A stretch of 33,205 nucleotides of DNA from an uncultured Bacteroidota bacterium. GTDB taxonomy: Bacteria > Bacteroidota > Bacteroidia > Flavobacteriales > Flavobacteriaceae. The position numbers and the translations under genes were made by a program. Of this stretch, positions 19,335 to 30,115 are shown one piece after another. The stretch is taken from contig CACJMJ010000010.1 of NCBI GenBank assembly GCA_902594485.1, forward strand, positions 1 through 33,205, read 5' to 3'. Each line of letters begins with the position of its first letter. Position 1 is the stretch's first letter. The notes under the pieces were generated by a model, which was not told the origin of the DNA, ran no database searches, and saw only the letters and a list, made by a program, of their open reading frames with translations.

Positions 19335-19349
19335 TGATAATGATTATCC
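19335..19349. promoter_or_regulatory. Fur-box-like 7-1-7 palindrome
   Basis: TGATAATGATTATCC matches 14 of 15 positions of the classical 7-1-7 Fur operator TGATAATnATTATCA. It covers the stop codon of the Cys/His mini-protein frame and lies about 145 bp upstream of the kinase start. One near-match in AT-rich DNA can arise by chance. Confidence 0.35.
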
Positions 19350-19466
19350 TTTCACTTGGTGATCACCACAAATGTTATTAGCCTCAACTTCAACATTATG
19401 TTTTGCACAAAGTAATGACTCTGTCATATTTGTACAATTTATACATGTATTAACTGTTTGAATCAT
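19344..19466 (-). CDS. 40-residue Cys/His-rich mini-protein (putative metal binding)
   Basis: A short minus-strand frame in the 380-bp gap between the histidine kinase and fbpC. The product begins MIQTVNTCINCTNMTES and ends NICGDHQVKG. All four cysteines and both histidines fall in a regular pattern: C8-x2-C11, C20-x2-H23 and C33-x2-H36. That spacing is what a small zinc-ribbon or iron-binding knuckle would show, and random AT-rich frames rarely contain it. It has no signal peptide, so it should be cytoplasmic. It is on the same strand as fbpABC, 104 bp beyond fbpC and after a long inverted repeat; a degenerate iron-box-like site (19503-19521) lies upstream. I recall similar tiny CXXC proteins in flavobacteria but cannot name a family. 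Confidence 0.6.
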   Translation of the reverse strand: MIQTVNTCINCTNMTESLLCAKHNVEVEANNICGDHQVKG

Positions 19467-19502
19467 TTTTAATAATTTTCATTAAAATTAAATCAAAAAA
19501 CG

Positions 19503-19521
19503 TTTAGAATGATTTTAAATT
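19503..19521. promoter_or_regulatory. Degenerate copy of the ATTTAGA-N5-TCTAAAT box
   Basis: GTTTAGAATGATTTTAAAT agrees with 12 of the 14 half-site positions of the palindromes found at 23184-23292. It lies 37-55 bp upstream of the Cys/His mini-protein start. It overlaps the long inverted repeat 19508-19548, so its meaning is uncertain. Confidence 0.3.
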
Positions 19522-19548
19522 ACTCATTTACAGTAATTTAAAATGATT
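19508..19548. terminator. Long AT-only inverted repeat after fbpC
   Basis: A 17-bp arm AATGATTTTAAATTACT, 7-bp spacer, then its inverted copy with one mismatch. It lies 23 bp downstream of the fbpC stop and on the minus strand is followed after 7 bases by six T residues. A weak AT-rich terminator or mRNA-stabilising hairpin for fbpABC is likeliest; an operator for the next gene is possible. Confidence 0.5.
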
Positions 19549-19570
19549 ATAAATAAAGAAATTAATTGGT

Positions 19571-20533
19571 TTAAGTGAAGAAATTACTACATTTTCTATC
19601 AAATTCTAAAAGATCACTCTTATCAAAATCAATAAATAAATTATTAGTATCCTTTATTGGTGCTGAATTATAAAAGTATATTTCATCTTTATTTAGGGTG
19701 CCTTTTATCTTATATTCCTTACCAATAAATGAAGTTTTTTCAACTTTTAATTTATGCTCTGATTTATCTACAATTTTAATTTTTTCAGGTCTTATATAAA
19801 GCTCTTTACCATCAACATGGATTCTGTTTAGATCTCCTAAAATTTTAGCACAATAACAATTAACTGGATTACAATACATCTCCTCTGGTTTATCATATTG
19901 CTGAACTATTCCTGCTTTAAAAACAAGTATTCTATCTGAAATATCAAAAGTGTCTTTTATATCATGAGTAACTAGAATTGTAGTAGTGTTTGTACTTTTT
20001 AATATTTTATATACTTCATTTTGAATTTTTGATTTAATACTAACATCCAGATTACTAAATGGCTCATCCATAAGAAGAAGATCGGGTTCTCTAATCAAAG
20101 CACGTGTTATACATACTCTTTGTTGTTCTCCACCAGATAATTCGTGAGGATATCGATTTAATAAATTACCCAGCCCAGTAAGTTCGACATAGTACTCAAT
20201 ATTTTTTTCATATTGTTTTTCCAGGTTTATTTTCAGATTCTCTAAAACACTTAGATGCGGAAAGAGAGGATAGTCCTGAAAAATAAATCCAATTTTCCTA
20301 TGGTTTGGTTTTATAAAGGTTGTTTTATTATCTAAAACTCTATTGTTTAATGTAATTTTTCCAGAATTTATTTTTTCAAGACCTGCTAAACATTTCAAAA
20401 AAGTTGTTTTTCCAGAACCACTCTCTCCAATAAAAGAGACAAATTCTCCTTTCTGAACAGAAAAATTTAAATCCTTAATTAATGGATCTTCTTTACTGTA
20501 AAACTTAACTAAATTTTCAATGTTAAGATACAT
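19571..20533 (-). CDS. fbpC: Ferric iron ABC transporter, ATP-binding protein
   Basis: A 320-residue ABC ATPase. Walker A is GESGSGKT (36-43), the Q-loop Q86, signature LSGGEQQR (132-139), Walker B LLLMDEP (152-158) and H-loop H190 in VTHD. Residues about 235-320 form a short regulatory (TOBE-like) region, as in FbpC/PotA-type ATPases. The segment joining the two domains reads EEMYCNPVNCYCAKILGD: three cysteines (221, 226, 228) where most relatives have only Tyr-x-x-Pro and Phe-Val-Ala. The start overlaps the end of fbpB by 11 bp, typical of translational coupling. Iron specificity is inferred from the adjacent binding protein and TonB locus. Confidence 0.9.
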   Translation of the reverse strand: MYLNIENLVKFYSKEDPLIKDLNFSVQKGEFVSFIGESGSGKTTFLKCLAGLEKINSGKITLNNRVLDNKTTFIKPNHRKIGFIFQDYPLFPHLSVLENLKINLEKQYEKNIEYYVELTGLGNLLNRYPHELSGGEQQRVCITRALIREPDLLLMDEPFSNLDVSIKSKIQNEVYKILKSTNTTTILVTHDIKDTFDISDRILVFKAGIVQQYDKPEEMYCNPVNCYCAKILGDLNRIHVDGKELYIRPEKIKIVDKSEHKLKVEKTSFIGKEYKIKGTLNKDEIYFYNSAPIKDTNNLFIDFDKSDLLEFDRKCSNFFT

Positions 20534-22103
20534 CTACGCCTTTGTTTATAATTTTTCTCAAAAATATCAATAAAACTGCACCCAGTAAAATAATAATTAA
20601 AGAGTATATGGAAGATTTTGCAATCATTTCTTCTATTGCATACTCATATGTCCTTACAGCTAAAGTGTCAAAATTAAAAGGTCTTAGAATTAAAGTAATT
20701 GGCAACTCCTTAATTATATCAACAAAACATAAAATAAATGCAATATATATTGAGTTAATATTTATTGGTAAATGAATTTTTTTAAATAATTTAAAATTCG
20801 TCATCCCCAAATTCCTTCCAGTATCATCAAATGTCTCTGGATGTTTATCAAAGCTTGATCTAAGAGGAGATATTCCAACTGCCATATATCTCATTACATA
20901 AGCATATACCAATATTATGACTGATCCAAAAGCTATTGAAACTCCAATTAACTTTGTTAAATATGCTAAAAAAATAATAAGCGATAGAGCTATAACTGCT
21001 CCGGGTAAGGCATATGTAAGTGAGACTATCTCACTTAAGTAAAAAACAGTTTTACTTTTAGATATCTTTTTTATAAACTGAAAAAAAATTGCAATAGCAA
21101 CTATTATTAAAGATGAAACTGAAGCTAAAAAGAATGAGTTTAAGGATAGATTTATTAACTCTCTAAAGTCTATAATATCTATAGTTTTAAAAACATTATT
21201 TATTATATAAATAACTGGAATAAAGAAGCCTAATATAAATGGGAATAAACAGATCAAATATATAGTTATTCTTGAAAATTTATTTGTAGAATAGTTACCG
21301 GATACTTTATCATTTGGTTTATAATTATATCTATATTTTGATGTTGAATATCTTTCTAGTAAAAAGAAAATAGATACAATAATAAGTAAGCAAACAGCTA
21401 AGATTGATGCGGTATTTATATCTTCCATTGAATACCAAGATCTAAATATTCCACTTGTAAAAGTATTTATACCAAAGTACTTAACAGCGCCATATTCATT
21501 TAGTACCTCCATTATAATTAAAAATAAACCTGAGAAAATCGAAACTCTAGATATTGGTAAAATAATCTTGAAAAAAGTTTGAAACTGTGACATTCCAAGG
21601 TTTTTAGAAATATTAATATAATTTGATCCTAGAAGTGAAAAAGATATTCTACATGCAGTATATAAATAAGGGTATAAAACAAGTGCCATCAAAAATGCCA
21701 GAATTTCAATTTGCAAATAATCATGATTTACATACTTATAAAAATCAGGATAATTATTCCTTACTATACTTTGAATGGGACCAGTATAACTTAAAAGATC
21801 ACTGTATGTAAACGCAATTATATATGAAGGAATAGCTAAAGGCAAAAATAGTATAACATCAAAGAAGTTTTTCCCTTTGAAATTTGTTGTAGAAACAAAC
21901 CATGCAGGTATAATTCCAAGTATCAAAGAAAAAAAAACTGTTAGTAATAAAAGATAGAGTGTATTCAATGAATAACCCAATAGAAGATTATTCCATAAAT
22001 ACATAAATGTATCAAGACTTAGTCCAATTACACTATATAAAAGATAGATTAACGGACATAATAAAAAGAGAGAAATAAGTGATGTTAATAGTTTAACATT
22101 CAT
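20523..22103 (-). CDS. fbpB: Ferric iron ABC transporter, fused permease
   Basis: A 526-residue inner-membrane protein with two homologous permease halves, about 12 helices in total, as in FbpB/SfuB. Each half has an EAA-type loop that contacts the ATPase: NISKNLGMSQFQTFFKIILP (164-183) in the first half and DDTGRNLGMTNFKLFKKIHLP near residue 430 in the second. It lies 19 bp downstream of fbpA and overlaps fbpC by 11 bp, completing a three-gene operon. Confidence 0.92.
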   Translation of the reverse strand: MNVKLLTSLISLFLLCPLIYLLYSVIGLSLDTFMYLWNNLLLGYSLNTLYLLLLTVFFSLILGIIPAWFVSTTNFKGKNFFDVILFLPLAIPSYIIAFTYSDLLSYTGPIQSIVRNNYPDFYKYVNHDYLQIEILAFLMALVLYPYLYTACRISFSLLGSNYINISKNLGMSQFQTFFKIILPISRVSIFSGLFLIIMEVLNEYGAVKYFGINTFTSGIFRSWYSMEDINTASILAVCLLIIVSIFFLLERYSTSKYRYNYKPNDKVSGNYSTNKFSRITIYLICLFPFILGFFIPVIYIINNVFKTIDIIDFRELINLSLNSFFLASVSSLIIVAIAIFFQFIKKISKSKTVFYLSEIVSLTYALPGAVIALSLIIFLAYLTKLIGVSIAFGSVIILVYAYVMRYMAVGISPLRSSFDKHPETFDDTGRNLGMTNFKLFKKIHLPININSIYIAFILCFVDIIKELPITLILRPFNFDTLAVRTYEYAIEEMIAKSSIYSLIIILLGAVLLIFLRKIINKGVDVS

Positions 22104-22122: not shown

Positions 22123-23142
22123 CTACTTCCAACCTCCAGCGTCAAATATACGAATTGCATCATTTCTTCTAATTCCTAACATATTCAAATCAAGAGGATC
22201 TTTTTTAAAAGTTCCCCACTCTTTTACAATATCATTCGGCTCAATATTTGGTTTTACTGAGTATTCATATGTATTATTTACATATATGTCTTGAGCCTCA
22301 TCACTTGTTAAATATTCGATTAGTTTAACTGCGTTTGATTTGTTTGGAGCATTTTTTGCAAGAGCAACTCCAGAAACATTTATATGAGAACCTCTTTCTC
22401 CATCTGCTTGATTTGGAAAAAACACTGATATTGATTTACCTGCATTTACTTCCTCTTCATTTTCTGATGAAAGTAAAAGCCCAATATAATATGAGTTTAC
22501 AATAGCAACATCTCCCTGACCAGCAGCTATTGCTTTTACTTGGTCTCTATCATTTCCTTTTGGATCTCTTGCAAAGTTTGAGACCACTGCATTAGTCCAA
22601 TTTTGTGTGGCTTCTTCTCCTAAGTTAGCAACAAGAGAAGACATAAGAGCTTGATTGTATGAATTGGATGATGATCTTACTAAAAGTCTTCCTTTCCATT
22701 TTTGATTTGCTAAATCTTCATATGTTGATAGATCACTTTCTTTAACTCTTTCATTACTGTATACAAGAATTCTTGATCTGTAAGTAACTGGCACCCAAAA
22801 ACCATTTGGGTCTATTAAGCTTTCTGTGATTCCCTCTGTTAAACTGTCATCATTATATTTTTGAAGCAGATCCATATCAGATGCTTGCCATAATTTACCA
22901 ACATCAACTGTTATAAATAAATCTGCTGGGCTATTCTCACCTTCATTTTTCATTCTTTGAATTAATTCATCAGCATTAGCCTTGATTACATTTACTTTTA
23001 TACCTGTTTTTTTTTCAAAATTGTCATACTGAAGTTGATCAACATCATAGTGTCTCTGACTATACATATTAACAATTTGTTCCGAATTATTATTTGAACA
23101 AGCTAAAATAAATAGGGCGAGAAGAAGGAATAATTTTTTCAT
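22123..23142 (-). CDS. fbpA: Ferric iron ABC transporter, substrate-binding lipoprotein (FbpA/FutA type)
   Basis: A 339-residue protein from the ATG at 23142; the longer frame from a TTG at 23163 would spoil the signal. MKKLFLLLALFILAC is a lipoprotein signal with lipidated Cys15. The mature start NMYSQRHYDVDQLQYDNFEKK resembles FutA-type proteins, whose early Tyr and His help bind Fe(III). The paired tyrosines of the family occur in VNSYYIGLL. It presumably captures ferric iron in the periplasm and passes it to FbpBC. The gene is divergent from the imelysin operon and shares the intergenic region with three palindromic boxes. Confidence 0.93.
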   Translation of the reverse strand: MKKLFLLLALFILACSNNNSEQIVNMYSQRHYDVDQLQYDNFEKKTGIKVNVIKANADELIQRMKNEGENSPADLFITVDVGKLWQASDMDLLQKYNDDSLTEGITESLIDPNGFWVPVTYRSRILVYSNERVKESDLSTYEDLANQKWKGRLLVRSSSNSYNQALMSSLVANLGEEATQNWTNAVVSNFARDPKGNDRDQVKAIAAGQGDVAIVNSYYIGLLLSSENEEEVNAGKSISVFFPNQADGERGSHINVSGVALAKNAPNKSNAVKLIEYLTSDEAQDIYVNNTYEYSVKPNIEPNDIVKEWGTFKKDPLDLNMLGIRRNDAIRIFDAGGWK

Positions 23143-23183
23143 ATCTGACTTATTAAAGCACAATATTAAAAAAAATTATTTTT

Positions 23184-23202
23184 ATTTAGACTAATTCTAA
23201 AT
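23184..23202. promoter_or_regulatory. Iron-box-like palindrome A
   Basis: ATTTAGACTAATTCTAAAT: 7-bp perfect arms with a 5-bp centre. The inverted symmetry extends three more bases on each side (23181-23205). It lies 42-60 bp upstream of fbpA and is best placed to control that operon. Confidence 0.75.
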
Positions 23203-23228
23203 AAATATTTAAATTAGCCATGAAAATA

Positions 23229-23247
23229 ATTTAGAACGGTTCTAAAT
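23229..23247. promoter_or_regulatory. Iron-box-like palindrome B
   Basis: ATTTAGAACGGTTCTAAAT: 8-bp perfect arms around CGG. An extra half-site ATTTAGA follows at 23249-23255, exactly 20 bp after the first half-site. It is central in the divergent region. Confidence 0.8.
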
Positions 23248-23273
23248 AATTTAGAAATCAATCAACCATAAAC

Positions 23274-23292
23274 ACTTAGGACCGTTCTAAAT
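23274..23292. promoter_or_regulatory. Iron-box-like palindrome C
   Basis: ACTTAGGACCGTTCTAAAT: right arm perfect, left arm with two changes. It ends 16 bp before the DUF4856 start codon, where binding would block transcription or initiation of the plus-strand operon. Confidence 0.7.
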
Positions 23293-23308: not shown

Positions 23309-24547
23309 ATGAAAATTATAAAAAAAATTAATCATAAACCAATATTATTTTTATTACTAACATCAATCTTTTTTACATCATGTTCGAAAGATGATGAAGT
23401 TGAATATATAACACAAACTGTAACTGAGACTGTTGTAGTAACTGAAACACAAACTGTGACTGTTGAAGTTCCTGTTACACAAACTGTGACTGTTGAGATT
23501 CCTTACTCTTATGAATTTGCAAGAGCTGGAAAACCTACTGTTTCTTTTTCAGGACAAACAGCAAGACTTAATATGGCTGATGAGCTTTATTCTGCATTAA
23601 ATACAAATACATTTTCAAAAGCGAAGATGCTTGAGATGTTTAATGACGGAACTGGATTTACAGACGCAGCACTAAATTCATCTGGTAAAAAGATGGGTAA
23701 TAAAACAGCTGCTTCACCTTTAGCTTCAGCTACAGTTAAGCCTCAATTTGATGCAATGATTGCTGATTTTGCAGACAATGTAATTCCTAATTGGGCAACA
23801 GATGCATCTAATGGTCAAGCGGGAGTTTTAACTGATGTTGCTAGAACTATTCATGTAAATGCAAAAGGTCATGAGATTGATCAAACATTTATCAAGGGAA
23901 TCATTGGAGCAATGACTCTTGATCAAATAGTAAATAACTATATAACTCCATATCAGTTGGATTCAGGAACAAGAACTGCAGATAACACAAACAAAACATT
24001 GTCTAGTGGAAAGGATTATACTGACATGGAACACAAGTGGGATGAAGGCTTTGGATATCTTTATGGTCAAGAAGCTGATGCTTCTAGATTGGACTTAGGT
24101 GTTTCACCTACTGGGAATGGAACGACACTAAATAAATACTTTAAAAAGGTTAATGCCAGCAGTCATCCAGGTATGGCAGTTCAAGTATTCGATGCATTTA
24201 GAAGAGGAAGAGCTTACATTGTTGCTAATCAATATGACAAAAGAGACGAACAAGCTGAAATAATTAAAAAAGAATTATCAAAGCTTATTGCACAGAAAGC
24301 TGTTGATTACATTAACGGTTATATGTCTAAAATTGCGGATGGAAATACAGCTGATGCATTCCATGCACTATCAGAAGGTTATGGTTTTGTAATGAGTCTT
24401 CAGTTCACAAATGACGGAACAGATACGCCATATTTCAGCAACTCTGAAGTAAATGCATTTTTAGCTTCTATGGATAATTTCTGGACTGTTGAGAATTCGA
24501 CTCTTGAGTCTATTAGAGATGAAGTAAAAGCAAAAGCTGGAATATAA
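23309..24547 (+). CDS. DUF4856 (imelysin-like) lipoprotein
   Basis: A 412-residue lipoprotein: LLTSIFFTSCSKDDE gives lipidated Cys25. A linker of TQTVTVEVP-type repeats (about 30-65) precedes the globular domain, which starts RAGKPTVSFSGQTARLNMADEL. That start and the later DMEHKWDEGFGYLYG identify DUF4856, a family found in Bacteroidota and related in fold to imelysin. Biochemical function is not established; imelysin relatives such as EfeO and IrpA are iron-linked. It is the first gene of a five-gene iron-type operon, directly behind palindrome C. A terminator follows it (24592-24625), so it may be more abundant than the genes downstream. Confidence 0.88.
   Translation: MKIIKKINHKPILFLLLTSIFFTSCSKDDEVEYITQTVTETVVVTETQTVTVEVPVTQTVTVEIPYSYEFARAGKPTVSFSGQTARLNMADELYSALNTNTFSKAKMLEMFNDGTGFTDAALNSSGKKMGNKTAASPLASATVKPQFDAMIADFADNVIPNWATDASNGQAGVLTDVARTIHVNAKGHEIDQTFIKGIIGAMTLDQIVNNYITPYQLDSGTRTADNTNKTLSSGKDYTDMEHKWDEGFGYLYGQEADASRLDLGVSPTGNGTTLNKYFKKVNASSHPGMAVQVFDAFRRGRAYIVANQYDKRDEQAEIIKKELSKLIAQKAVDYINGYMSKIADGNTADAFHALSEGYGFVMSLQFTNDGTDTPYFSNSEVNAFLASMDNFWTVENSTLESIRDEVKAKAGI
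23447..23503 (+). repeat. 30-bp repeat encoding the VTQTVTVEVP linker
   Basis: Two nearly identical units of about 30 bp, beginning acacaaactgtgactgttga, with a more diverged copy just before. They encode VTQTVTVE followed by VP or IP: a Thr/Val-rich spacer between the lipidated Cys and the DUF4856 domain. Confidence 0.7.
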
Positions 24548-24638: not shown

Positions 24639-25886
24639 ATGAAACATTTATATATTAAAATTTTTATTGCCTTACTTGTAATAGTATCATGTAGTAAGGA
24701 CTCTGATGAAGATTATGGTCAAAATAGTTCTCAGAGTAATGTTCAAACAACAACAAATAGTTCTAGTGGCTCGACAACTGGTACTACAACAGGTACTTCA
24801 ACTGGCACTACAACGGGTACTTCAACTGGCACTACAACTGGCACTACAACTGATAGCTCTTCAAGCCAAGGAGATACTTTTGATAGAGGTTCAATTTTAG
24901 CAAACTATTCTGAAAATATTATTATACCAAGATATAATACATTCAAATCATCTATGGATATCCTAAAAAATAGTATTGAGACTTTTGTTAATTCTCCTAA
25001 TTCTGATAATTATGATGCACTTCAAACTGACTGGATAGATTCATATAAAAAATGGCAATATGTTGAAGTTTTTAATATCAGTAAAGCGGAGGAAATTATG
25101 TATGGATTAAAAATGAACACCTACCCAGTTAGTAAAGAAAGAACTGATAATAATATTGATGAAGGAAAAACTGATCTTACGAATCCTAATGATTGGTCTG
25201 CCCAAGGTTTTCCTGGACTAGATTATATGCTTCACGGAATTGGTGAAACAAAAGATGCTGTAATTGAATTATACAGTTCTGAATCAAAATATGGCAATTA
25301 TTTACTCACTTTAGGTTCTGTAATGAATGAGAATACCATCCAAGTTGTTGATGATTGGACTACGTATAAAGATGTTTTTAATTCATCTGTAGATAATACT
25401 GCTACATCAGCATTCAATATGATGGTCAATGATTTTGTATATTATTTTGAAAAAGGTCTTAGAACAAACAAAATTGGAATTCCTGCTGGAAGATTCTCCT
25501 CTACTCCACTTCCTGATAAAATTGAAGCCTATTATTACTCAAAAAACTCTTTTGGAAATCTTTCAAAAACTCTTGCTCTAGAATCAAGAAAGGGAGTTGA
25601 AGAATTATTCCTTGGTTTAAACTCAGATGGTGTCGAGGGTCCTAGTTACAAATCTTATCTAGACTATCTTGAAACAGAAATAGGAAATAGTGTAAAAACT
25701 AAATTGGAAGAAGCAACTTTAAGTTTAAATGATTTACAAGATAATTTCTTAACTCAAATTGCAGAAAACAATACTTTGATGCTAGTCGCTTTTGATGCAC
25801 TTCAAACAATTGTTGTAAATTTAAAGACTGACATGTTATCTAACTTTAACATTGCGGTAGACTACACTGATGCAGATGGTGATTAA
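24639..25886 (+). CDS. Imelysin (peptidase M75-like) family lipoprotein
   Basis: A 415-residue lipoprotein: MKHLYIKIFIALLVIVSC places the lipidated Cys at 18. A spacer of Ser/Thr/Gly repeats (about 28-75, six GTxT units) leads to an all-helical imelysin domain. That domain carries the family landmark QGFPGLDYMLHG (188-199) and a C-terminal half with similar helices, as in the two-bundle fold. Imelysin proteins include bacterial iron-regulated IrpA and EfeO-like ferric-binding proteins; despite the peptidase M75 label, proteolysis is not shown for most. It is probably exposed on the outer membrane or periplasmic face and works with the TonB receptor two genes on. The HTTM gene follows after 13 bp. 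Confidence 0.88.
   Translation: MKHLYIKIFIALLVIVSCSKDSDEDYGQNSSQSNVQTTTNSSSGSTTGTTTGTSTGTTTGTSTGTTTGTTTDSSSSQGDTFDRGSILANYSENIIIPRYNTFKSSMDILKNSIETFVNSPNSDNYDALQTDWIDSYKKWQYVEVFNISKAEEIMYGLKMNTYPVSKERTDNNIDEGKTDLTNPNDWSAQGFPGLDYMLHGIGETKDAVIELYSSESKYGNYLLTLGSVMNENTIQVVDDWTTYKDVFNSSVDNTATSAFNMMVNDFVYYFEKGLRTNKIGIPAGRFSSTPLPDKIEAYYYSKNSFGNLSKTLALESRKGVEELFLGLNSDGVEGPSYKSYLDYLETEIGNSVKTKLEEATLSLNDLQDNFLTQIAENNTLMLVAFDALQTIVVNLKTDMLSNFNIAVDYTDADGD
24780..24851 (+). repeat. Six 12-bp repeats encoding GTxT units
   Basis: Six consecutive units of the form GG(T/C)ACT(A/T)CAAC(n), alternating GTTT and GTST codons. In-frame change in copy number would lengthen or shorten the spacer between the lipid anchor and the imelysin domain. 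The Thr/Ser density makes it a plausible O-glycosylation region. Confidence 0.9.
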
Positions 25887-25899
25887 CTAACATATTTCA

Positions 25900-27255
25900 T
25901 TGAATATTTCAAAATATTTAAATAAAAAACAAGACTCTTCAAGCCTAGCAATTTTTCGACTAGGCTTTGGTTTTTTAATGCTATATAGCACTATAAGAAT
26001 ATGGTATAAAGGGTGGATTAGGGAGTTGTATATCGATCCATCATTTCATTTCTCGTATTATGGCTTTGAATGGGTAAAACCAATTGGAGACTATACTTAT
26101 TTAATCTTTTTATTATGTGCAATATCATCATTTTTTGTAGCAATTGGATATAAATATAGAATCTCAATTATTTTACTCTTCTTAAGTTTTACATATGCAG
26201 AGCTAATGGATAAAACAACTTATCTTAACCATTATTATTTGGTTAGCCTGATAAGTTTTCTAATGATCTTTTTTCCTGCAAACGCAAAGTTTTCAATAGA
26301 TAATTTAATTAGTAAAAAATCATACGAATTTATACCCAAGTGGAATGTAGACGCCATAAAATTAATGATCTGTATAGTATACTTTTATGCAGGAATTGCA
26401 AAGATTAATAGTGATTGGCTTATTGATGCTCAACCATTAAAAATCTGGTTAACATCCAAATATGATCTTCCAATTTTTGGTGGTACATTATTTCAGATGG
26501 ATTGGGTTCATGTTTTTTTTAGTTGGGCTGGTATGTTTTATGATCTCTTAATTGCATTCATTTTATTGTATAGAAGGACAAGACCATTTGGATTTTTTCT
26601 TGTAATAACTTTTCATATAATGACAGCGATTCTTTTTCCTGCGATAGGTATGTTCCCTTACATAATGATTACATCTTCTATAATTTTTTTAGAGCCGCAA
26701 ACTCATAAAAAAATATTAGATAGAGTTTCTTCTATATTTAGAAAATACTTCCAAAAAGTGTCTTCTATATCAAATTATAATTTCAAAAAAGCTAAATTTT
26801 CTCAAACTATTTTAGTCATTTTCTTTTCTATCCAGTTACTTTTTCCATTTAGATATTTTCTTTACCCTGGAGAATTATTTTGGAATGAACAAGGATATAG
26901 ATTCTCTTGGAGAGTTATGCTTATAGAGAAAAAAGGGTTCACAGAGTTTAAAATAGTTGACGGAGAAACATCAGAATCATTTTATGTTTTAAATGAAGAG
27001 TTTTTAACTGAGTTTCAAGAAAGACAGATGAGTTTTCAACCAGACTTTATACTAGAATATGCACATTATCTTGGTGACTATTACAATAATAATGGGTATA
27101 ATAATGTTGAAGTTTATGCAGAGAGTTATGTGACATTAAATGGAAGGGAAAGTAAAGTATTTGTTGACCCAAATATTGACTTAATGAAAGAAGAGAGAGG
27201 CTTTTCAAACAAAGAATGGATAACAGAATTAGAGGATGAAATTAAAGGTTTTTAA
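25900..27255 (+). CDS. HTTM / vitamin K-dependent gamma-carboxylase-like membrane protein
   Basis: A 451-residue protein with an N-terminal multi-helix HTTM domain (about 12-265) and a soluble C-terminal part. Similarity to human gamma-glutamyl carboxylase can be read by eye. MDKTTYLNHYYL (103-114) corresponds to DKTSWNNHSYL with its catalytic His160; YFYAGIAKINSDWL (161-174) corresponds to YFIAGVKKLDADW with catalytic base Lys218, here K168. IGMFPYIMITSS corresponds to IGMFSYVMLASS. The C-terminal EYAHYLGDYY and SYVTLNGRESKVFVDPNIDL match the enzyme's C-terminal segment too. Carboxylases turn Glu to Gla using reduced vitamin K; this organism's menaquinone would be the analogue. The start is TTG (25900): an in-frame stop lies 9 bp upstream and no ATG occurs before residue 27. 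It overlaps the TonB receptor gene by 20 bp. Confidence 0.88.
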   Translation: MNISKYLNKKQDSSSLAIFRLGFGFLMLYSTIRIWYKGWIRELYIDPSFHFSYYGFEWVKPIGDYTYLIFLLCAISSFFVAIGYKYRISIILLFLSFTYAELMDKTTYLNHYYLVSLISFLMIFFPANAKFSIDNLISKKSYEFIPKWNVDAIKLMICIVYFYAGIAKINSDWLIDAQPLKIWLTSKYDLPIFGGTLFQMDWVHVFFSWAGMFYDLLIAFILLYRRTRPFGFFLVITFHIMTAILFPAIGMFPYIMITSSIIFLEPQTHKKILDRVSSIFRKYFQKVSSISNYNFKKAKFSQTILVIFFSIQLLFPFRYFLYPGELFWNEQGYRFSWRVMLIEKKGFTEFKIVDGETSESFYVLNEEFLTEFQERQMSFQPDFILEYAHYLGDYYNNNGYNNVEVYAESYVTLNGRESKVFVDPNIDLMKEERGFSNKEWITELEDEIKGF

Positions 27256-29659
27256 AATATTAATTATTCTGAGTTTTAACTCACTATTCTCTCAGGAGAA
27301 TTTAAGTGGAGTTATTATAAGCGAATCAACTAATCTACCACTTGAAAATGTGACAATTTTCAACTCTGAAACAAATGAAATCTCTTATAGTGATTCTGAG
27401 GGTAAGTTTATTATTTCAATAAATAATATTGATTCAGAAATAAACTTTTTTCTTGAAGGATATAACCTTTTATCTAAAATTTTCGGTCCACAAGTTTCAG
27501 AATCAAATAATGTCACTATTAGATTGGCTCCAAGAATTGAGGAATTAAATGAAGTTGTGGTAAGGGCAAACCTAAAAAAGATTTTTCAAATTAAAAGATT
27601 TCAAGATGTTGAGGGAACAAGAATATATGCTGGGAAAAAGAATGAGGTGATTCTTATTGATGTTTCAATGGCAAATCTTGCATCAAATAATGCCCGTCAA
27701 ATTTATAATCAGATTCCAGGACTCAATATATATCAAAATGATGATGCTGGACTTCAACTTAATATAGGTGGAAGAGGGCTTAACCCAAATAGAACTGCCA
27801 ATTTTAATACAAGACAAAATAATTATGATATAAGTGCAGATGCATTAGGGTATCCTGAAAGTTATTATACACCACCACCTGAAGGTCTTGAAGAAATTCA
27901 AATATTAAGGGGTGCAGCTTCACTTCAATATGGAACTCAATTTGGTGGGCTTATTAATTTTAAAATTAAGAAACCCAAACCTGAGGAAAGATTTGAGCTG
28001 ATTACTAGAAATACTGCTGGTTCAAATAATCTATTTACAAATTTTACGAGTGTTAGCTCAAGTAATGAAAAATCTAGTTATTATGGTTATGTTAATTATA
28101 AAAATGGAGATGGTTTTAGACCTAACTCTGAGTTTGAATCAATTAATACATTTCAGAATTTCAATTATAATTTAAATGAAAAGTCAAAAATAACAGGAGA
28201 GATAACATACATGGAATATCTTGCTCATCAGGCAGGAGGACTTTCAGATTTTATGTTTGCTAATGATCCTTTTCAAAGTAATAGAGAGAGAAATTGGTTT
28301 GAAATAAAATGGTTTTTATATAATCTAAAATACTTACTTCAAATTTCAGAAGATTCAAGCTTTAGTTTTAATTTTTTTGGTCTAGACGCACAAAGAAATT
28401 CATTAGGTTTTAGAACAAATAGAGTTGATCAAATTGATTATGGTGAAGAAAGAGATTTGATTAAAGGGGACTTCAAAAATTTTGGCTTTGAATCAAGATA
28501 TCTTACTAGCTTTAATTTTTTAAATAAAAAATCTTATCTACTCCTAGGAGCTAAATACTATAATTCATTTTCTCAAAGTGTTCAAGGTCCTGGAAGTAGT
28601 TCTAAGGATGCTGATTTTAATTTTGATTATATAAATTTCCCAAACTATGTAAATCAATCTGAGTACAGTTATCCTAATAATAATTTGGCAATCTTTGGTG
28701 AAAATATTTTTTATATAAATGAAAGTTTATCCATAACACCTGGGTTTAGGTTTGAGAACATAAATACTAGTCTAGATGGTTACTACAGAAAAATTAATCT
28801 AGATGCTGCAGGTAACACAATTTATAATGAAAGATTTGATGAAGAGGATACCAAGAAAAGAAAGTTTCTATTACTTGGTTTAGGACTTAGTTACAAAAAA
28901 AGGGGGCTTGAATTATATACAAATATCAGTCAAAACTTTAGATCTGTAACATTTGCAGATATAAGTATTAGTAACCCTGCTTATGCTATAAATCCTAATA
29001 TTGATGATGAGAAAGGGTTTACATTTGATATAGGTTTTAGAGGAAACTATAAAAAAATGATTTCCTTTGACTCTAGTATTTTTGCACTTATATATAGAGA
29101 CAGGATTGGGTTTATCCAAAAAGTATTTAGTGATGGTAATGTGAAGAGTGAGAGAGGTAATGTAGGGAATGCCCAAATAACAGGTGTTGAATCTTTATTT
29201 GATTTTGATATAAATGAAATTCTATTTAAAAATGAAGATGTAGATTTTAATATTTTTTTTAATTATTCTTATATAGAATCTAAATATTTAAAATCTAATG
29301 AAGTAGGAATAACAGGAAAAGAAGTTGAATTTGTTCCTAAAAATAATTTTAAAACAGGTTTAAAATTTGGTTATAAAGATTTTGCAATTAATTTTCAATA
29401 TTCATACCTGTCAAGTCAATTTACAGACTCTTCAAATGCTATATCAGGAAATCTAAGTGGAGTAATTGGTCAAATTCCTTCCTATGAAATTTCTGATTTA
29501 TCAATGTCATACAAACTAAGAAACATTAAATTTGAAGCTGGAGTCAATAATTTATTTGATGAAATATATTTTACAAGGAGAGCCACAGGATATCCTGGCC
29601 CCGGAATAATTCCTTCTCCTCCAAGAAATAGTTATATAACTTTAGAAATCAAACTATGA
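27236..29659 (+). CDS. TonB-dependent outer-membrane receptor, FecA-like
   Basis: An 807-residue receptor. The signal peptide ends near LFSQ (about 19-20). A carboxypeptidase-regulatory-like beta domain (about 22-100) is followed by the plug (about 125-245), containing QIPGLNIYQNDD, GGRGLNPNRTANF, DALGYPESYYTPPPEGLE and ILRGAASLQYGTQFGG, a set typical of the ferric-dicitrate/FecA branch in Bacteroidota. A 22-strand barrel makes up the rest, ending YITLEIKL. The ligand, probably a ferric chelate, is inferred from plug similarity and the FbpABC neighbours. It starts within the HTTM gene and its stop overlaps the DCC gene start by 4 bp (ATGA). Confidence 0.94.
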   Translation: MKLKVFKILIILSFNSLFSQENLSGVIISESTNLPLENVTIFNSETNEISYSDSEGKFIISINNIDSEINFFLEGYNLLSKIFGPQVSESNNVTIRLAPRIEELNEVVVRANLKKIFQIKRFQDVEGTRIYAGKKNEVILIDVSMANLASNNARQIYNQIPGLNIYQNDDAGLQLNIGGRGLNPNRTANFNTRQNNYDISADALGYPESYYTPPPEGLEEIQILRGAASLQYGTQFGGLINFKIKKPKPEERFELITRNTAGSNNLFTNFTSVSSSNEKSSYYGYVNYKNGDGFRPNSEFESINTFQNFNYNLNEKSKITGEITYMEYLAHQAGGLSDFMFANDPFQSNRERNWFEIKWFLYNLKYLLQISEDSSFSFNFFGLDAQRNSLGFRTNRVDQIDYGEERDLIKGDFKNFGFESRYLTSFNFLNKKSYLLLGAKYYNSFSQSVQGPGSSSKDADFNFDYINFPNYVNQSEYSYPNNNLAIFGENIFYINESLSITPGFRFENINTSLDGYYRKINLDAAGNTIYNERFDEEDTKKRKFLLLGLGLSYKKRGLELYTNISQNFRSVTFADISISNPAYAINPNIDDEKGFTFDIGFRGNYKKMISFDSSIFALIYRDRIGFIQKVFSDGNVKSERGNVGNAQITGVESLFDFDINEILFKNEDVDFNIFFNYSYIESKYLKSNEVGITGKEVEFVPKNNFKTGLKFGYKDFAINFQYSYLSSQFTDSSNAISGNLSGVIGQIPSYEISDLSMSYKLRNIKFEAGVNNLFDEIYFTRRATGYPGPGIIPSPPRNSYITLEIKL

Positions 29660-30057
29660 GTAAAAGCTTAAATAATGAGATTATAATTTATGATGGTATA
29701 TGTGTGCTATGTAATTACTTTATTCAATTTATTTTAGAAAAAGATAGAAAGGCTCATTTTAAAGTAACAAATCTTCAAAGTGAATTTACAAAAACAAAAT
29801 ATCCAGAAATTCTAGCTGTTGATTCAGTTGCAGTTATTTTGGAAAATGGAAAAATTTTGCAAAAAAGTAAAGCAGTCTACTACATTTTACAAAAAATTAA
29901 AGTCTTACTATTAATCAGAGTTTTAATTTATGTTTTTCCAATATTTTTTTCAAATATAGTCTATGACTTTATTGCTCTGATTAGATACAAATTATTTGGA
30001 AAATACTCCTATTGTCCCGTACTCAAAGGGGATTTAAAAAATAGAATAATTGAATAA
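29656..30057 (+). CDS. DCC-family (DUF393) thiol-disulfide oxidoreductase
   Basis: A 133-residue protein with the defining motif YDGICVLCN (D13, C16, C19) near the N-terminus and the family's C-terminal RYKLFGK followed by a Cys-Pro (YSYCPVL). It contains a hydrophobic stretch (about 83-105) that may associate with the membrane. DCC proteins are predicted thiol-disulfide oxidoreductases with a thioredoxin-like fold; the partner is unknown. ATGA overlap with the receptor gene shows translational coupling. DCC domains are often found with HTTM proteins, as here, which suggests it may act on the HTTM enzyme or its quinone; this is inference. Confidence 0.9.
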   Translation: MSKSLNNEIIIYDGICVLCNYFIQFILEKDRKAHFKVTNLQSEFTKTKYPEILAVDSVAVILENGKILQKSKAVYYILQKIKVLLLIRVLIYVFPIFFSNIVYDFIALIRYKLFGKYSYCPVLKGDLKNRIIE

Positions 30058-30096: not shown

Positions 30097-30115
30097 ATTT
30101 AGAATAAATCTATAT
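30097..30115. promoter_or_regulatory. Iron-box-like palindrome upstream of hemA
   Basis: ATTTAGAATAAATCTATAT agrees with 13 of the 14 half-site positions of ATTTAGA-N5-TCTAAAT. It lies about 95-110 bp upstream of hemA and 40 bp after the DCC stop. The rest of 30058-30208 shows only a weak 5-bp hairpin after the DCC gene. Confidence 0.55.

Follow-up and report, generated by a model that had tools for sequence, protein, structure and literature searches.

The classic Fur box of the Bacillus/E. coli type is a 7-1-7 repeat, TGATAAT-N-ATTATCA, and the operators of DtxR/IdeR repressors, of the TTAGGTTAGCCTAACCTAA type, are 19-bp palindromes with TTAG/CTAA ends that stand at iron genes. In Riemerella anatipestifer (R. 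anatipestifer), a duck pathogen of the order Flavobacteriales, a 19-bp Fur box, ATTTAGAATTATTCTAAAT, was predicted, and purified Fur shifts promoters carrying this box in an EMSA (PMC5609570). That sequence is given in the results and table of the paper, while its abstract gives the Fur box as GATAATGATAATCATTATC, the E. coli consensus (PMC5609570); a later paper repeats GATAATGATAATCATTATC as the R. anatipestifer Fur box. In a second R. anatipestifer study, binding of Fur to a promoter containing ATTTAGAATTATCCTAAAT was metal dependent, at a Kd of 4.3e-9 M, and a fur mutant showed derepression (PMC10986502).

The window analyzed here is a 33,205-nucleotide stretch of DNA from an uncultured member of the Flavobacteriaceae, whose closest named records are uncultured marine Flavobacteriales, among them Cryomorphaceae bacterium MED-G11. 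One intergenic region of the window carries three copies of the same 19-bp palindrome as that of R. anatipestifer, ATTTAGA-N5-TCTAAAT, two of which match at every arm position. The two systems also have in common the location of the box ahead of iron genes, including those for TonB receptors, a Fur-family regulator, and the order to which the organisms belong. They differ in the number of boxes, with one per promoter in the published cases and three in a single divergent region in the window, and in the central bases, which are ATTAT in R. anatipestifer and ACGGT in window box 2. In addition, Fur binding in R. anatipestifer was shown by experiment, whereas the window boxes are assigned by sequence. 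Experimental support for this Fur box has so far come from one duck pathogen, and the present analysis extends the box to a streamlined marine genus of uncultured flavobacteria and to nine further genera of the family, which yields a motif that can be used to predict the iron regulons of ocean bacteria.

Three palindromes between divergent iron operons

Box 1 (positions 23184 to 23202, ATTTAGACTAATTCTAAAT, center 23193) lies nearest the Fe(III) transporter operon, box 2 (23229 to 23247, ATTTAGAACGGTTCTAAAT, center 23238) is a perfect 9-pair palindrome, and box 3 (23274 to 23292, ACTTAGGACCGTTCTAAAT, center 23283) is a weaker copy nearest the DUF4856 gene; none is assigned to a strand. Compared with ATTTAGA-N5-TCTAAAT, the boxes contain 0, 0, and 2 mismatches, respectively. 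A sequence-only reading of the window had described these three palindromes, with two changes in the third, and had placed them at 45/45 spacing. Both statements are correct for the window sequence itself when taken from the box centers, and the extra half-site that it reported at 23249 is also present (ATTTAGAA, 23249 to 23256, plus strand).

Matches to Pfam and to PDB sequences confirmed the position of the boxes between divergent iron operons. On the minus strand is an Fe(III) ABC-transporter operon composed of genes for an Fe(III)-binding protein of the fbpA/futA type (22123 to 23142), a permease (20523 to 22103; Pfam BPD_transp_1), and an ATPase (19571 to 20533; Pfam ABC_tran). The best solved relatives of the binding protein are the iron-binding proteins 6g7n and 2pt1 (PDB; E about 1e-94) and 2voz, and a start at 23142 fits better, as an alignment of congeners shows no conservation of the seven N-terminal residues of the listed open reading frame (ORF). 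On the plus strand, the operon begins with the gene for a DUF4856 protein (23309 to 24547; Pfam PF16148, E 2.7e-94), followed by those for an imelysin-family protein (24639 to 25886; PF09375), an HTTM/vitamin K-dependent carboxylase-like protein (25900 to 27255; PF05090 and PF22777), a TonB-dependent receptor (27236 to 29659; PF00593, with NCBIfam TonB-siderophor below the cut-off), and a DCC1-like thiol-disulfide oxidoreductase (29656 to 30057; PF04134). The genes hemA-hemC-hemD come after the DCC1 gene. The fbpA gene is patchily distributed, being found in 14 of 201 genomes of the family, and the window Fe(III)-binding protein is 45 to 51% identical to proteins of Paenibacillus, Desulfovibrio, and Zoogloeaceae; transfer of this gene is possible.

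When the intergenic region was subjected to 5,000 dinucleotide shuffles, none (0/5000) contained even one exact copy of the palindrome. Over the whole window, 16 matches with ≤3 mismatches were found versus 13 expected; the pattern is not unusual at this threshold, and weight was therefore given to the strong matches only. The view that the palindromes arose by chance as repeats in intergenic DNA very rich in A+T can appeal to these weak matches, which are as frequent as in the controls, and to the composition of a congener genome (G001, about 70% A+T). It must contend with the result of the shuffles, with conservation of the boxes above that of their spacers, and with the retention of a site at the same gene in independent genera, and we give it almost no credence. 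The three boxes are real.

Conservation and spacing across the genus

Among the promoters readable in full, those of 12 genomes of the genus (that of the window and 11 congeners) retain boxes 1 and 2; in a thirteenth, G016, the region is present only in degenerate form. The arms of box 1 are invariant in the 12 genomes, and conservation across the region peaks at box 2 (mean column identity 0.99). Box 3 is kept at 1 to 2 mismatches in nine genomes, and in the remaining three, no third box with ≤2 mismatches was found near the expected place. Column conservation in the 12 genomes was 0.95, 0.99, and 0.90 for the three boxes versus about 0.75 to 0.77 for the spacers. The half-site is present in about half of the congeners.

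The distance between boxes 1 and 2 is 43 to 45 bp across the 12 genomes, and that between boxes 2 and 3 is 45 bp in the window genome only, being 46, 48, or 61 bp elsewhere where box 3 is not degenerate. Spacing was thus not conserved across relatives in the way that a cooperative array would predict. Since the box columns stand above the spacers and the distances vary, the boxes look selected and their exact spacing hardly so. Exact 45-bp spacing was rejected as a constrained feature because the congeners do not retain it. A distance of 45 bp also corresponds to 4.29 helical turns, which puts adjacent boxes out of phase, about 100 degrees apart on the helix.

These data weaken the earlier suggestion that boxes set at equal 45-bp intervals point to cooperative binding or looping. 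A Fur array that is cooperative or looping, and whose action depends on how far apart the boxes lie, would account for the steady distance between boxes 1 and 2 and for the recurrence of pairs elsewhere (36 bp apart beside hmuY, 34 bp apart before a small Cys-rich ORF, and, in other genera, a weaker pair at 40 bp). However, the genomes are closely related, and the spacing of boxes 1 and 2 may therefore be inherited rather than constrained; the second distance varies, the boxes are out of phase, and most other genera have only one strong box at fbpA. A search of the literature for evenly spaced Fur boxes acting cooperatively returned nothing directly relevant, and we consider such an array unlikely here. 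Similarly doubtful is the idea that paired or triple Fur boxes at 34 to 45 bp are a recurring promoter design of the Flavobacteriaceae, used at fbpA in the genus, at the hmuY/porin junction, and at the gene for the small Cys-rich protein. If it were true, the recurring 34- to 45-bp step would mean that Fur acts as spaced, interacting dimers instead of via single boxes.

Association of the motif with iron and heme genes

The window genome (860 kb, 58% complete) and the largest contig of congener G001 (1.11 Mb read) were scanned with the full R. anatipestifer consensus. Across 25 genomes of the genus, a relaxed pattern that allowed one mismatch and left the N5 open occurred no more often than its reversed control, and the full published consensus was used instead for this reason. 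The window genome contained six sites with ≤2 mismatches, five of which lie in the window contig: boxes 1 and 2, two sites near 19.5 kb, and one before hemA. The chance of finding five of six sites in this contig is about 5e-7, or 2e-4 without the two boxes that had already been flagged. The site before hemA (ATTTAGAATAAATCTATAT, 30097 to 30115, no strand assigned) has one mismatch to the arm pattern and occupies the same position in G001. The two sites near 19.5 kb (19502 to 19554, no strand assigned) are 34 bp apart, have 2 mismatches each to the consensus, are kept in congeners, and sit upstream of a small Cys-rich ORF (19344 to 19466, minus strand).

In G001, the five best sites were all intergenic, versus 6.6% intergenic DNA according to a simple ORF map. 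Two are at fbpA, and one precedes a gene in the hemA position. The fourth lies between a multiheme cytochrome c gene and a SPOR-domain gene (G001:C1:232132), and the fifth is flanked by an unknown gene and an ABC-F-like gene, with no obvious iron gene. Ten loci carrying an fbpA orthologue were then taken from other genera of the family. At nine of these, the best site of the locus was ≤200 bp upstream of the estimated fbpA start, versus 0/10 with the reversed consensus as a control. Because these genera may also have DtxR, their boxes support the link between motif and gene and not the choice of regulator. Sites are therefore concentrated in the promoters of iron and heme genes, and the association with flavobacterial iron genes that had been proposed is supported, with the full consensus, by the window genome (5/6 sites in the window contig), by G001, and by 9/10 other genera.

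Several features of these scans concern loci other than fbpA. The box between the multiheme cytochrome c and SPOR-domain genes recurs in several congeners and could mean iron-dependent control of respiration. In several congeners without a detected fbpA (G006 to G010), a TonB receptor-HmuY-porin-like cluster contains two boxes at a distance of 36 bp, and a further box is often found close to the receptor; fbpA and HmuY loci possibly reflect the replacement of one iron source by another within the genus. The small ORF downstream of the two boxes near 19.5 kb encodes a Cys/His-rich product of 40 amino acids, MIQTVNTCINCTNMTESLLCAKHNVEVEANNICGDHQVKG, and is kept in congeners. At least 10 further genera of the family have relatives of 76 to 82 amino acids, several of them accompanied by two weaker box-like sites at a distance of 40 bp. 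The window ORF may encode a shortened version of a metal-binding protein under iron control.

Fur as candidate regulator and a proposed iron switch

A search for Fur-family proteins was positive in 22 of the 25 genus genomes, including that of the window, in which the protein is encoded on contig C1, scores 91.5 bits to PF01475 (above the cut-off), and has ferric uptake regulators as its best solved relatives. Congener G013, a draft genome, keeps the boxes with no Fur detected. Orthologues of the genus Fur occur throughout the order at 53 to 69% identity. In 34 orthologues, the recognition-helix region is 92% conserved versus 60% for the whole protein, which fits a presumed shared binding specificity. 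A DtxR-family homologue was detectable in 1 of the 25 genomes, that of G001, and is a short MntR-like protein. The search was sensitive, since 226 of 298 genomes of the order were positive. It gave no match in the window genome, which at 58% complete proves little by itself, and DtxR was detected in none of the 11 box-bearing genomes other than G001.

The sequence-only reading had preferred DtxR/IdeR, on the grounds that a 19-bp size resembles operators of that type more than the 7-1-7 Fur box. Boxes bound by a repressor of the DtxR/IdeR/MntR family would be in keeping with the frequency of DtxR homologues in the order, with the MntR-like protein of G001, and with a shared layout, namely, a 19-bp palindrome with TTAG/CTAA ends at iron genes. 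The half-site spacing of DtxR/IdeR operators is nevertheless unlike that of the window boxes, their regulator is missing from nearly the whole genus, the boxes persist in genomes without it, and the motif equals a published Fur box. The argument from size fails as well, since box 2 itself has a core, TTAGAAC-G-GTTCTAA, that forms a perfect 7-1-7 repeat. This is the inverted layout of the classic Fur box, and the Flavobacteriales half-site TTAGAAT has 5 of 7 bases in common with TGATAAT, the difference being at bases 2 and 4, which are G and T in the classic half-site and T and G in the Flavobacteriales. The preference for DtxR/IdeR is thus unsupported; as nearly absent from the genus, it was rejected as the regulator, and we judge it very unlikely. 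Of the two candidate regulators, the one that is widespread in the genus is Fur. The more general claim that the boxes are operators of an iron-responsive repressor gains support from the Fur box match and from the link of the motif to iron and heme genes, both of which point to such a role.

The three palindromes are therefore very probably Fur boxes, at which binding of Fe(II)-Fur would block both divergent promoters and release of apo-Fur would permit expression. With enough Fe(II), Fur dimers would bind the boxes. On the side of the Fe(III) ABC-transporter operon, box 1 would cover the upstream promoter region, and on the other side, boxes 2 and 3 would cover the promoter of the operon with the DUF4856, imelysin, and TonB receptor genes. 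Under iron shortage, apo-Fur would leave, and both uptake operons would be expressed. For the window organism, we infer Fur binding, repression, and the exact positions of the promoters. The cluster is best read as a putative normal multi-box Fur operator, an ordinary iron switch that would use an already known type of box. The data also suggest that a single Fur is responsible for iron control in the genus and that DtxR has mostly been lost. Neither the extension of the motif nor control by a single Fur is surprising.

A scan for sigma-70 promoters found nothing above shuffles, as expected for Bacteroidetes, and candidate -7 elements were searched as TAnnTTTG, the Bacteroidetes -7 element. 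For the Fe(III) transporter operon, two putative elements, TAATTTTT from 23178 and TAATATTG from 23168, lie on the minus strand within 23160 to 23178, with one mismatch each; conservation of the stretch from 23160 to 23169 is 0.95. A further candidate, TAATTTAG at 23247, is one change from TAnnTTTG and overlaps the half-site, which may alternatively be part of a -7 promoter element. At five of the fbpA loci of other genera, a perfect TAnnTTTG is found 3 to 5 nt after the box, and an element placed just after the box indicates that the box covers the upstream promoter region.
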